Shown: in pieces, positions 35,257 to 41,235 of the stretch
Numbering within the stretch: the stretch's first letter is position 1
How the letters are laid out: each line of letters opens with the position of its first letter
Source of the DNA: Gemmatimonadota bacterium
GTDB taxonomy: Bacteria; Gemmatimonadota; Gemmatimonadetes; Gemmatimonadales; GWC2-71-9
Direction: 5' to 3'
NCBI GenBank assembly: GCA_016874005.1
Contig: VGVQ01000016.1
Span: forward strand, 1-64,000
Length of the DNA stretch: 64,000 bases
The notes under the pieces: model-generated
Told to the model about the DNA's origin: nothing
What the model saw: the letters and a program-made list of their open reading frames with translations, nothing else
Database searches by the model: none
Position numbers and translations under genes: made by a program

Positions 35257-36201
35257 ATGACGATCGTGCGGGTGTTCGCTCCGGGGTCGATCGGCAACCT
35301 CGGGCCCGGCCTCGACATCATCGGACTCGCCGTGGGTGGCGCCGGCGACAGCGTGACGGCTGAACGGACCCGGGGCGGCCAGATCGAGGTCGCCGAGGCC
35401 GGTCATCCGACGCTCTCCACCGACCCCGACCGCCATGCCGCGGCGATCGCCGCTGCCGCGGTATTCCGGCTGGCGCGCCGACGTACCGGGCTTCGGATCT
35501 GGTGCGAGAAGGGGCTCCCGCTCGCTGGTGGACAAGGAGGCAGCGCGGCCTCGGCGGTCGCCGGTGCCGTCGCGGCCAATCTGCTGGTGGGATCGCCACT
35601 CGACGCCACCAGGCTGATGGAGGCGGCCCTGGTGGCGGAAGAGGCGGTGGCCGGGCGCCACCTCGATAACATCGCCCCGGCACTGCTCGGTGGGATGACA
35701 CTGATCCGAAGCATCGATCCGATCGACGTCATCCGGCTCCGGGTGCCGGCCCGACTGCGGATCGTGCTCGCGAAGCCGAGCTACGAACTCAGGACCAGGG
35801 ACGGGCGCTCCGCGTTGCCCGACACCGTCAGTCGATCGACGGCGTTGTACCAAGCGGCTCAGGTGGCGGGGGTGGTGGCCGGAGCAACGACGGGCGACCT
35901 CGCCTTACTCGGCCGCTCGATCGACGATCGGATCGCCGAGCCGGCCCGGGCCCCGTTGCTCCCCGGGTTCGTCGAGGCGAAGGCCGCTGCCCTCGCCGCC
36001 GGGAGCCTGGGTTGCTCGATTTCTGGTAGCGGGCCGACGATTTTCGCGCTGGCGGCGGACGACCGCACCGCCCGGCGAATCGGCCTGGCTATCGCCCGCA
36101 GCTACCGGCGGAGCGGGTTCGAGACCACGCTGCGGATTGGCAGCGTGGACTCGACCGGAGCGCGAGAGCGGCCCATTGTGAGACGCCCGACGAGCAGGTG
36201 A
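35257..36201 (+). CDS. thrB: homoserine kinase (GHMP family)
   Basis: The enzyme phosphorylates homoserine in threonine synthesis. 314 residues from the ATG behind GAGGAAG. GHMP kinase motifs: N-terminal VRVFAPGSIGNLGPGLDIIG, the ATP loop PLAGGQGGSAASAVAG, and C-terminal GCSISGSGPTIFAL. The loop has GGQGGSA where ThrB usually has GLGSSA, a small change. thrA and thrC are not near. It overlaps nothing and converges with the peroxiredoxin gene 4 bp away. Confidence 0.88.
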   Translation: MTIVRVFAPGSIGNLGPGLDIIGLAVGGAGDSVTAERTRGGQIEVAEAGHPTLSTDPDRHAAAIAAAAVFRLARRRTGLRIWCEKGLPLAGGQGGSAASAVAGAVAANLLVGSPLDATRLMEAALVAEEAVAGRHLDNIAPALLGGMTLIRSIDPIDVIRLRVPARLRIVLAKPSYELRTRDGRSALPDTVSRSTALYQAAQVAGVVAGATTGDLALLGRSIDDRIAEPARAPLLPGFVEAKAAALAAGSLGCSISGSGPTIFALAADDRTARRIGLAIARSYRRSGFETTLRIGSVDSTGARERPIVRRPTSR

Positions 36202-36205
36202 CTTG

Positions 36206-36769
36206 TTACTTGGCGAGCCGATCGACCGCGGCTTCGAGCTCCTGGTAGGCCGTCGGGTCCGTTTCGCGAAATGGCGACATCACGTGGGCGATCTTGCCAT
36301 CCGGGCCGATGAGGTAGACCACCCGGGCGTTGAGCATGCCGATACGGGTCTCAATGGCCACCCCATACTTCTTGCCGACGTCGGCGCCGACATCGCTCAA
36401 GAACGTCACCGGGTACCGGTTCTCCGCCGCCCAGCTGGCGAGGGTGGTGTCAGGATCGACGCTGACCGCGAACGCGGCAACACCCTTACCACCGTTGAAG
36501 ATCGTCGCGTACTGATCACGGTACGCGTTCATCTGAGCCGTTCAGCCACCGGTCCTGGCCTTGGGGAAGAACGCTAGGACGACCGTCTGTCCCCTGAAGT
36601 CGGCGAGACTGGCCGCCTTCGGAGAGACGCCGTCCTTGGTTGCCGCCGGCAGCGAAAAGGCGGGCGCCTGGGCGCCAACCGCGAGCGGCTTCGGTTGCGG
36701 TCGTTCTTGCGCGGTGGCGTGACCGGCGAAGCCGATCAGCGCGAGTGCCGCCAACGTCACCTTGACCAT
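36206..36769 (-). CDS. exported peroxiredoxin-like selenoprotein (TGA = Sec, residue 76)
   Basis: An AhpC/TSA-type peroxiredoxin of 187 residues if the TGA at 36544-36542 is read as selenocysteine. The start is fixed by GAGGAGG. Residues 1-21 are a signal peptide ending ATAQ, so it acts outside the cytoplasm. The fold then runs AVGAQAPAFSLPA, TVVLAFFPKARTGG-U-TAQMNAYRDQ, VAAFAVSVD, and YPVTFLSDVG... The TGA is exactly at the peroxidatic Cys position, coding continues on both sides in one frame, and the protein has no Cys at all, so a single Sec would be the redox centre. A hairpin of bacterial SECIS form follows it. The alternative is a TGC-to-TGA nonsense mutation. Confidence 0.82.
36506..36541 (-). 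promoter_or_regulatory. candidate bacterial SECIS hairpin
   Basis: Starting right after the TGA there are 14 bases, a perfect 7-bp stem CGCGTAC / GTACGCG (36527-36521 with 36512-36506) and an 8-base loop CGTGATCA. The loop starts 21 bases after the TGA and has G as its second base, within the size and G-position rules known for bacterial SECIS elements. No tRNA-Sec or selB is in the window. Confidence 0.65.
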
Positions 36770-37106
36770 CGTACCTCCTCGATGGCTGGAAAATCGGGGC
36801 ACCCCGGGCCCAAAACAAGGGAGGCCCTTCCGGCGGGGACCGAAGAAGGCCGGTACAGGAGGCCGGTCCGGGGTTCCACGGCCATCGCCATGGCTTGGTG
36901 GGGCCCCTTCCGGTCGGTTCCGGCCGCCGACGGCTGTTGGATCGCGATCCAAGGGAGCCGTGAGGCGCAGAGAGGCCCGATGGAACCACCAGTCCCGAGG
37001 CGGCTGGGCCGGTAGTGATGACAAGGGGTTTCGGGGGCTGAATCGGCGACCGGACGTCTTGGGGCCTCGCGATGGGGTGGGGGGCTGTCTAAGTTCCCCC
37101 ACGGAT
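36770..37106. other. 337-bp divergent spacer
   Basis: The space between the peroxiredoxin gene (minus) and ettA (plus) has no recognisable gene. It must hold both promoters. CTAAGTT near 37090 could be the -10 region of ettA; nothing convincing is seen for the other direction. Confidence 0.4.
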
Positions 37107-38786
<1,680 letters not shown>

Positions 38787-38794
38787 GAGACGGC

Positions 38795-39837
38795 ATGCCG
38801 TTATTGCGGCAGAAGATCTCGGTGTTACCGCCCCGGCTCGAGGGTCTGGCCGCCCTGGCGACGAACCTGTCGTGGAGCTGGAACCGCGAGGCCCGCGACC
38901 TGCTCCGGACCATCGACCCGCCCCTGTGGCGGGAGACTCGGCATAACCCGATCGAAATGCTGCGCGAGGTGCCGCCGTCGCGCCTGGAGAAACTGGCCCA
39001 CGACCCCACCTTCTTGGCTCGGTACGACCGGGTCATGACCTGGATGGCGGGGGATCGGCAGCACGATCGGACCTGGTTCGGGCGCCGCAACCCCGACGTG
39101 GGGGGCCGCCCGATCGCCTACTTCTGCGCCGAGTTCGGACTTCACAACTCGGTTCCGATCTACAGTGGCGGGCTCGGCATTCTCGCCGGCGACCACTGCA
39201 AGACCGCCTCCGACCTCGGGCTTCCGTTCGTCGGGATCGGGTTGTCGTACATGAAAGGCTACTTCGACCAGCGGCTCCGGGCCGACGGCTGGCAGGAAGA
39301 CAGCGATGACCACGTCGACCCGATCATAACGCCGTTGGTGGAGCTGCGGGGCGATGACGGCCAATCCCACTTGACGGTGGTCGAGACATTCGGCCGCCCG
39401 GTTTACGTCCGGGTCTGGACCATGAAGGTGGGGCGGGTGCCGCTGTATCTGCTCGACACCAATCTCGAGTCCAATCACCCCGAAGACCGCGCCCTCCTGA
39501 GCAAGCTCTACGCCGGGGGACCCGATCTTCGGCTTCGGCAAGAATGGCTCCTTGGGGTGGGTGGGGTCCGAGTTCTCCGAGCCGTCGGGCTCGACCCGGG
39601 CGTGTGGCACGCCAACGAGGGCCACGCCGCGTTCATGATGCTCGAGCGGGTTCGGGAGCTGACCGTCGCCGGAATGCCCTTCGCCGAGGCGGTCGCGGAG
39701 ATCCGGTCGACCTCGGTATTCACGACCCATACGCCGGTCCCCGCCGGCCACGATGCCTTCGATGTCGATCATCTGGTCGCCTGTACCGGCCCGGTCTGGG
39801 ACGAAATGGGGATCGACCAGGAGACCTTCCTCGACGG
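38795..39837 (+). pseudogene. glgP: N-terminal part of an alpha-glucan phosphorylase (truncated)
   Basis: The start (behind AGGAGA) and the first ~348 residues are a GT35 alpha-glucan phosphorylase of the type with an N-terminal DUF3417: LEGLAALATNLSWSWNREAR, IAYFCAEFGLHNSVPIYSGG, GILAGDHCKTASDLG, GVWHANEGHAAFM and VFTTHTPVPAGHDAF. Around 39838 homology ends; the frame runs on to 40144 in nonsense. The catalytic half with the PLP lysine is missing, so it cannot phosphorylyse glycogen. The following sequence belongs to a GH57 enzyme in another frame. Either a deletion joined two glycogen genes, or the assembly did. Confidence 0.85.
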
Positions 39838-41235
39838 CCGCCGGCCGAACTCGGCGACTACCTGGCGCAGCTCCATCGAGACGAGGCCCCGGCTGCGGTG
39901 CTCGCCGACGATGGCGAGAAGTTCGGTGGGTGGCCCGGAACCAAGGAATGGGTGTACGGCAGCGGCTGGATGGCCGATTTCACCGCGACGCTCCAGCGGT
40001 TGGCCGATGACGGGATCGCGCGGCTCGCCACCTTCGCCGAGATCGTCGAGGAGGTACCGAGCGGCGGGCTCGCCTATCTGCCCAGCGCCTCCTACCGTGA
40101 GATGGAAGGCTGGGCCCTGCCGGCCGGGCAAGCCGTTCGCCTGAAGCACCTCGAGGACTTCCTTGGCGAGGCCCGGATCAGCGGTAAGGACGGGGCATTG
40201 ATCAGGGGGAGCCACTGGCGGCATTTCCTGGCCAAGTACCCCGAGTCGAATCGGATGCACAAGAAGATGCTGGTGCTGTCGCGACTGTGCCGGGAGCGCG
40301 GCGACCCGGCCGGCGCGCGCCGGGCGGTCGGGCAGGCGCAGTGCAATGACGCCTATTGGCACGGGGTGTTCGGCGGGCTCTACCTTCCCCATCTCCGCGA
40401 TGGTATCTGGCGAGCCTTGGCCCAGGCCGAGCAGACCCTCCGCGCCGGCGAGGGGCTCGCGATCGAGCCGATCGATCTCGACTGCGACGGCCACCGGGAG
40501 TGGTGGGTACACAGCGCGACCTTCTCGGCGCTGATCGCCCCGCACCGCGGTGCCGCGATCGAGGAATGGACCTCGTTCGCCAGCCTTCGCAACGCGGCGA
40601 ACGTCCTGACCCGCCGGCACGAGGGGTATCACCAGGAGGCGGTGGAACGAGAACGGCAACGACGGTCGGAGCCCGAGGCGAACTCGGCCGGCGCCCCGAG
40701 CATCCACCACCTGGAAGAGTCGTTACGGCTCGCGCAGCTGCCACCGGCGGACCGATGGCCGCGGGCGATCGGCCTCGAGTCGATCGTGGGACCGGTCGAG
40801 GCGGTGGCCGACTGGGTGGCTGGCGCGATCCCGCGGCTGCGCGACTGGGGTGGCGCGAACGGCGGCTCGACCGCGGGCCTCGAGGCCGGGGTCGCGGTGA
40901 TTCGAACCCAATTCGACGGCCTCCGGAAGACCATTCGCATCGACGACCGGGGACGGCTCCGGGTCGAGTTCGAGTGGGATGCCCTTCCGGGGGCAACCTG
41001 GTTTACCACGGAATGGTCGCTAGCCCACGAGGTGACGATCCGGACCGACGCGACGGCGCGATGGGGCTACCCGATCGAGACCATCGCCAAGAGCGAGCGC
41101 GGTTTCGATCGCACCATCCAGGGCCAGGCCCTGGTCCTAGGCTGGTCGATCGGGTCCGGACGTGGGTTCGTCGAAGCCGAGAACCCGACTCCCCCGGCTA
41201 CGGAACCGGCCGATCCTTCCGTTCCAGGCGAGTGA
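39838..41235 (+). pseudogene. C-terminal part of a GH57 alpha-glucan enzyme (truncated)
   Basis: From about 39845 a second frame encodes the back half of a GH57 4-alpha-glucanotransferase/alpha-amylase: DYLAQLHRDEAPAAVLADDG, EKFGGWPGTKEWVYGSGW, GLAYLPSASYREMEGWALP, SNRMHKKMLVLS, NDAYWHGVFGGLYLPHLR, and the DUF1926-type beta-sandwich at the end (GLRKTIRIDDRGRLRVEFEW). The N-terminal barrel part with the catalytic Glu and Asp is absent and no start codon of its own is evident. The last 38 bp overlap the convergent LVIVD gene. Confidence 0.85.

Follow-up and report, generated by a model that had tools for sequence, protein, structure and literature searches.

Peroxiredoxins (Prx) that carry selenocysteine (Sec, U) at the peroxidatic position within a TxxU motif constitute an established selenoprotein family, of which 91 proteins from 78 organisms were counted in 2016 (PMC5029168) and of which more occur in marine metagenomes (PMC1088965). 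The founding member of the TxxU family (COG1225/PF00578), as listed in PMC13188914, is PrxU of Eubacterium acidaminophilum (Sohling 2001), and the proline of the extended PxxxTxxC motif is described as highly conserved in Sec-containing members too (PMC13188914). The Prx-like thiol:disulfide oxidoreductase selenoproteins of the UxxC type belong to the same Pfam family, also contain Sec, and have a second Cys in their motif. Among the enzymes that use Cys, the cytoplasmic 1-Cys peroxiredoxin AhpE of Mycobacterium tuberculosis depends on mycothiol/mycoredoxin for its regeneration. Bcp4/PrxQ of Sulfolobus (3hjp, 2ywn) are likewise Cys enzymes without Sec, 2ywn having a second Cys at +5. Outside the cytoplasm, the Caulobacter relay ScsB-TlpA-PprX provides an example of a peroxiredoxin fed by TlpA, and the relevant portions of the two reviews describing it contain no report of PprX as a selenoprotein (PMC5403849, PMC9144841).

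The gene analysed here lies on the minus strand of a 64,000-nucleotide stretch (the window) from a soil-type Gemmatimonadota bacterium with a genome of 3.88 Mb, 97% complete, and it is very probable, judging from its sequence, that it encodes an exported Sec-containing peroxiredoxin. Its product belongs to the established Sec-Prx kind, with which it shares Sec at the peroxidatic position, the TxxU motif and the AhpC/TSA fold; it differs from that family in its predicted export, in the absence of any other Cys and in that two thirds of its Sec relatives have lost the proline of PxxxTxxU. The gene occupies 36206..36769, as given in the initial annotation, which left the strand unstated, and runs from an ATG at 36769, preceded at a distance of 4 nt by the Shine-Dalgarno sequence AGGAGG (36774..36779, minus strand), to a stop codon at 36208..36206. 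These 187 codons and the stop contain a single in-frame TGA (36542..36544) and, with TGA read as U, translate into 187 amino acids without a single Cys; the product starts with MVKVTLAALALIGFAGHATA, continues after the predicted cleavage site with QERPQ, passes through VVLAFFPKARTGGUTAQMNAYRDQY around residue 76 and includes NARVVYLIGPDGKIAHVM further on. When TGA is read as Cys, the Pfam model AhpC-TSA (PF00578) matches residues 31-162 above its cut-off (E=1.1e-26) and Redoxin matches at 1.6e-20; both matches run across the TGA at residue 76, so the homology continues through it, and the earlier claim of peroxiredoxin homology on both its sides is borne out. The NCBIfam PrxU model NF040737, in turn, has a cut-off of 270 bits; the protein scores 52.7 and so misses the threshold for a PrxU equivalog. 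As had been anticipated, ATG-initiated gene calling cuts the gene in two (36542..37192 and 36206..36532).

Position 76 (PKARTGG-U-T) is the peroxidatic position, and the window protein retains both the full PxxxTxxU motif, i.e. P69, T73 and U76, and the catalytic Arg. The codon of Thr73 (36551..36553, minus strand) falls in a column that is invariant in alignment A2, with Thr/Ser in 122 of 123 sequences, and that of Arg149 (36323..36325, minus strand) in another invariant column, the Arg motif being present in 123/123. At the N-terminus, an SPase I-like signal peptide with an AxA site is encoded at 36710..36769 (minus strand) and would be cleaved before QE. Using simple sequence features to call signal peptides, without SignalP, we found an N-terminal hydrophobic segment in all 122 homologues with a readable N-terminus and an xxA site followed by Q, A or E in 120 of them, while none of the 122 had another Cys in its mature domain. 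The signal peptide and the lack of any other Cys reported in the initial annotation are shared by the relatives, and the protein is predicted to be located outside the cytoplasm.

The distribution of the TGA was followed by a protein search reading through stops in 151 related genomes and in 395 others taken from the phylum, nearly all of them metagenome-assembled, as are those relatives of the window's genome that bear names, all of Gemmatimonadota. The gene was widespread, mostly with one TGA, and 123 distinct close homologues were extracted from the fetched loci. At the column of U76, 91 of these have TGA and 32 have TGC/TGT, with no other codon present, which confirms both the exact placement of the TGA at the peroxidatic Cys and the expected pairing of U with C. 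About 100 related species share the TGA, and because it recurs in as many independent genomes the sequencing error at 36542-36544 that might have explained it is excluded. Downstream of the TGA, dN/dS ranged from about 0.1 to 0.46 and was mostly below 0.3, indicating that purifying selection persists after this codon.

Comparison of the same homologues points to a recoding signal. A hairpin of 22 nt (36506..36527, minus strand), at +15 to +36 after the UGA and thus 14 nt past it, is formed by codons 5-12 and consists of a 7-bp stem with a GCGTAC core and an 8-nt loop, CGUGAUCA. All seven stem pairs form in 83 of the 91 Sec copies and are nearly absent from the Cys copies (2/32). The outer pair (36527/36506), made of two codon third positions, covaries among C-G (28), U-A (21) and G-C (34); it is paired in 84/91 Sec copies against at most 52 in 10,000 codon shuffles preserving the amino acids. 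In the structure count, 15 cells had a change on each side of the stem, compared with 5.2 in shuffles, and the covariation was reached by none of 500 shuffles. Synonymous sites after the TGA are also close to fixation in Sec copies, with CGT in 87/91 (background 5%), GAT in 87/91 (33%), CAA at codon 3 in 79/91 (4%) and TAC at two positions in 91/91 (50%). The folding energy of the single hairpin was unexceptional (z -0.8), and single-sequence folding and synonymous-shuffle energies were weakly below expectation (z about -1), so that energy was not counted as evidence and the case rests on covariation and codon choice. On this comparative basis, the element at 36527..36506 is identified as a bacterial SECIS.

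The machinery to be expected if the TGA encodes Sec is complete in the same genome, where we identified tRNA-Sec (68 bits, anticodon TCA), SelA (517 bits), SelB (303 bits) and SelD (371 bits). Besides the Prx gene, at least three others for selenoproteins contain a TGA: SelD itself, with TGA at HGAGUACK (genome G000, C14:80596-81510, L024); FdhA, with TGA at SCNRTU (C2:150801-152078, L170); and a second exported Prx-like protein of the UxxC type, which reads MKSHLPALLLAGSLAAAPALSAQ and then, further on, FYRGHWUPWC (C10:80124-80519, L096).

Across genomes, the machinery follows the codon. Of 99 genomes with a TGA-containing Prx, 92 have selA, one of them (G007) counted on a contig-end fragment only; of 19 genomes in which all copies have Cys, 1 does (Fisher p=1e-14). 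Since six of the seven Sec genomes without selA have SelB, its absence from those six probably reflects gaps in the assemblies, the absent gene being selA. At least one of SelA and SelB was thus detected in 98/99 Sec genomes, and 18/19 Cys-only genomes lacked both; the exceptions are the Sec genome G102 (80% complete), with no match to either, and the Cys-only genome G127, with both. Because close relatives are not independent, supported tree pairs were compared beside these raw counts, giving four concordant pairs, none discordant and one tie, a sample too small to reach significance. About 12-13 changes between Sec and Cys are needed to explain the tree, at least eight of which are forced by well-supported branches, and one switch falls within a single genus, in which G002 has TGC and lacks selA and SelB, as opposed to G000, G001 and G003-G005.

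A second residue changes with the codon. The proline of PxxxTxxC, seven residues before U, is present in 32/32 Cys copies versus 29/91 Sec copies, the remaining 62 having Phe (31), Tyr (27) or, in other cases, Ile, Ser or Val; the window protein keeps it (P69). Cys copies nested among Sec relatives without the proline (L103, L155, L128) all have it. On independent tree pairs the association amounts to about three to four concordant and no discordant cases, which is small evidence. We tentatively propose, while judging it more likely to fail than to hold as a whole, that an exported peroxidase with a single selenium occurs throughout the phylum, that its Sec and Cys forms replaced each other at least eight times alongside gain or loss of the machinery, and that Sec releases an otherwise near-universal active-site proline. 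If true, selenium alters the constraints under which the active site of a peroxiredoxin works.

An AlphaFold2 model of the protein built with 28 sequences reached a pLDDT of 90. Its best fold match was M. tuberculosis AhpE (Z 22.4, rmsd 1.9 over 150 residues, 29% identity), with which it shares a single peroxidatic residue and the absence of a resolving Cys; Bcp/PrxQ structures were nearly tied (Z 20.5-21.6), the top Foldseek match was 3hjp, and the nearest sequences in the PDB were Bcp4/PrxQ of Sulfolobus (E 9e-16 for 2ywn). By modelled fold and by Thr73 and Arg149, the protein is most likely a peroxiredoxin of the 1-Cys type in which Sec takes the peroxidatic role. Sec insertion and peroxidase activity, both of which we infer from sequence, would proceed as follows: having bound the hairpin (36527..36506), SelB would deliver Sec-tRNA-Sec at the UGA (36544..36542); the 187-amino-acid product would be exported by its signal peptide, whose cleavage would leave Sec76 as the sole redox residue; Sec76 would reduce H2O2 or an organic hydroperoxide and become a selenenic acid; and, as the protein has no resolving Cys, an external thiol would then reduce the selenenic acid.

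The most likely candidate for this thiol is an exported TlpA-like thioredoxin receiving its electrons via CcdA, a proposal to which we give about an even chance. On contig C23 of the same genome, the gene for CcdA (DsbD_TM, 151 bits) is immediately followed by one for an exported protein that is TlpA-like and contains WCSVC, a pair that resembles the ScsB-TlpA-PprX relay. PprX, compared here through its description in the two reviews, is located outside the cytoplasm, as is predicted for the window protein, for which a TlpA-type donor is plausible as well; the window protein differs in having Sec. The initial annotation had held that such an enzyme would need an unusual reductant; this is not required, given a fold closest to the 1-Cys AhpE, the known TlpA-fed PprX and the CcdA-TlpA pair. 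Gene context points to no reductant, as no conserved redox gene was found beside Prx in the compared loci and the recurrent neighbours are glycerate kinase-like, carbamoylputrescine amidase-like and ABC-F-like genes (identified by eye from translations, except the ABC-F gene of the window, which Pfam recognised). The order on C23 (L168, L097) is ispG-like, CcdA, exported TlpA-like and an exported 184-amino-acid protein that looks Prx-like, lacks Cys and has no Pfam or NCBIfam match.

It is possible, though less likely, that the Sec peroxidase is instead regenerated by a low-molecular-weight thiol of the envelope or that a different exported protein with a thioredoxin fold serves as donor. No redox gene adjoins Prx, such a mechanism is established for 1-Cys peroxiredoxins such as AhpE, and the title of a structure matched in the fold comparison mentions mycothiol, but the genome has adjacent genes for CcdA and an exported TlpA-like protein. 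TlpA, moreover, feeds a known envelope peroxiredoxin, PprX (PMC5403849).

We consider it improbable that the selenoprotein is not mainly a peroxidase and acts as an exported thiol/disulfide reductase or a peroxide sensor with a dedicated partner, e.g. the UxxC protein L096. The missing resolving Cys, the second exported UxxC Prx-like protein in the same genome and the replaced proline in 62/91 Sec relatives would fit such a role, but the active-site Thr and Arg of peroxiredoxins are conserved, the fold is nearest to AhpE/Bcp peroxidases and the window protein retains the full PxxxTxxU. That the TGA is a genuine stop, as standard gene calling reads it, leaving a broken gene or a 75-residue fragment through sequencing error, pseudogene mutation or a quirk of the lineage, is so improbable as to be negligible in view of a TGA at one codon only in about 100 species, purifying selection past it, the covarying hairpin and the co-occurrence with SelA/SelB. 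An alternative genetic code, with TGA read genome-wide as Trp or Cys, would suit its position opposite Cys in homologues, but may be dismissed for practical purposes, since TGA also serves as an ordinary stop for neighbouring genes (e.g. 36199-36201), FdhA and SelD have TGA at classical Sec sites, and tRNA-Sec, SelA and SelB are present.

With an exported Sec-Prx, defence against peroxide by means of selenium would reach the cell envelope in a major soil phylum. It is an old question why organisms bear the cost of Sec in place of Cys, for which an exported family without a second redox residue, with Sec in about 100 species and Cys in about 20, constitutes a natural comparative series that includes switches inside one genus and tandem Sec/Cys pairs in one genome. 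In the open-access literature searched, we found no paper on a Sec peroxiredoxin in Gemmatimonadota, nor any description of an exported, Cys-free, phylum-wide Sec-Prx with repeated Sec/Cys switches. ATG-to-stop calling halves the gene of this protein, and no curated NCBIfam model covers the protein above cut-off.

Several minor observations accompany these results. Tandem Prx genes within one genome, one with Cys and one with Sec, or both with Sec, occur in genus g52 (e.g. L044, L045, L116, L123, L153), and two Sec copies occur in L063/L106. The sequences L068, labelled Terrabacteria ANGP1, and L079, labelled Acidobacteria, were placed among Gemmatimonadota sequences in the tree, and their contigs are probably mis-binned. 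Rfam gave no match at the gathering threshold near the Prx gene, and four sub-threshold matches there (ALIL, blv_FSE, mraW and mir-2774) look like chance. The interval that separates the divergently oriented Prx and ABC-F genes (36820-36922) is G+C-rich, contains an imperfect 23-nt direct repeat (74%) and has no Rfam match at threshold. Elsewhere in the window, at 38795-41235 on the plus strand, a DUF3417/glucan phosphorylase frame runs into the C-terminal region of a 4-alpha-glucanotransferase in another frame, the two overlapping at 39544-40144, a frame change that could reflect a fusion, a deletion junction or a frameshift.
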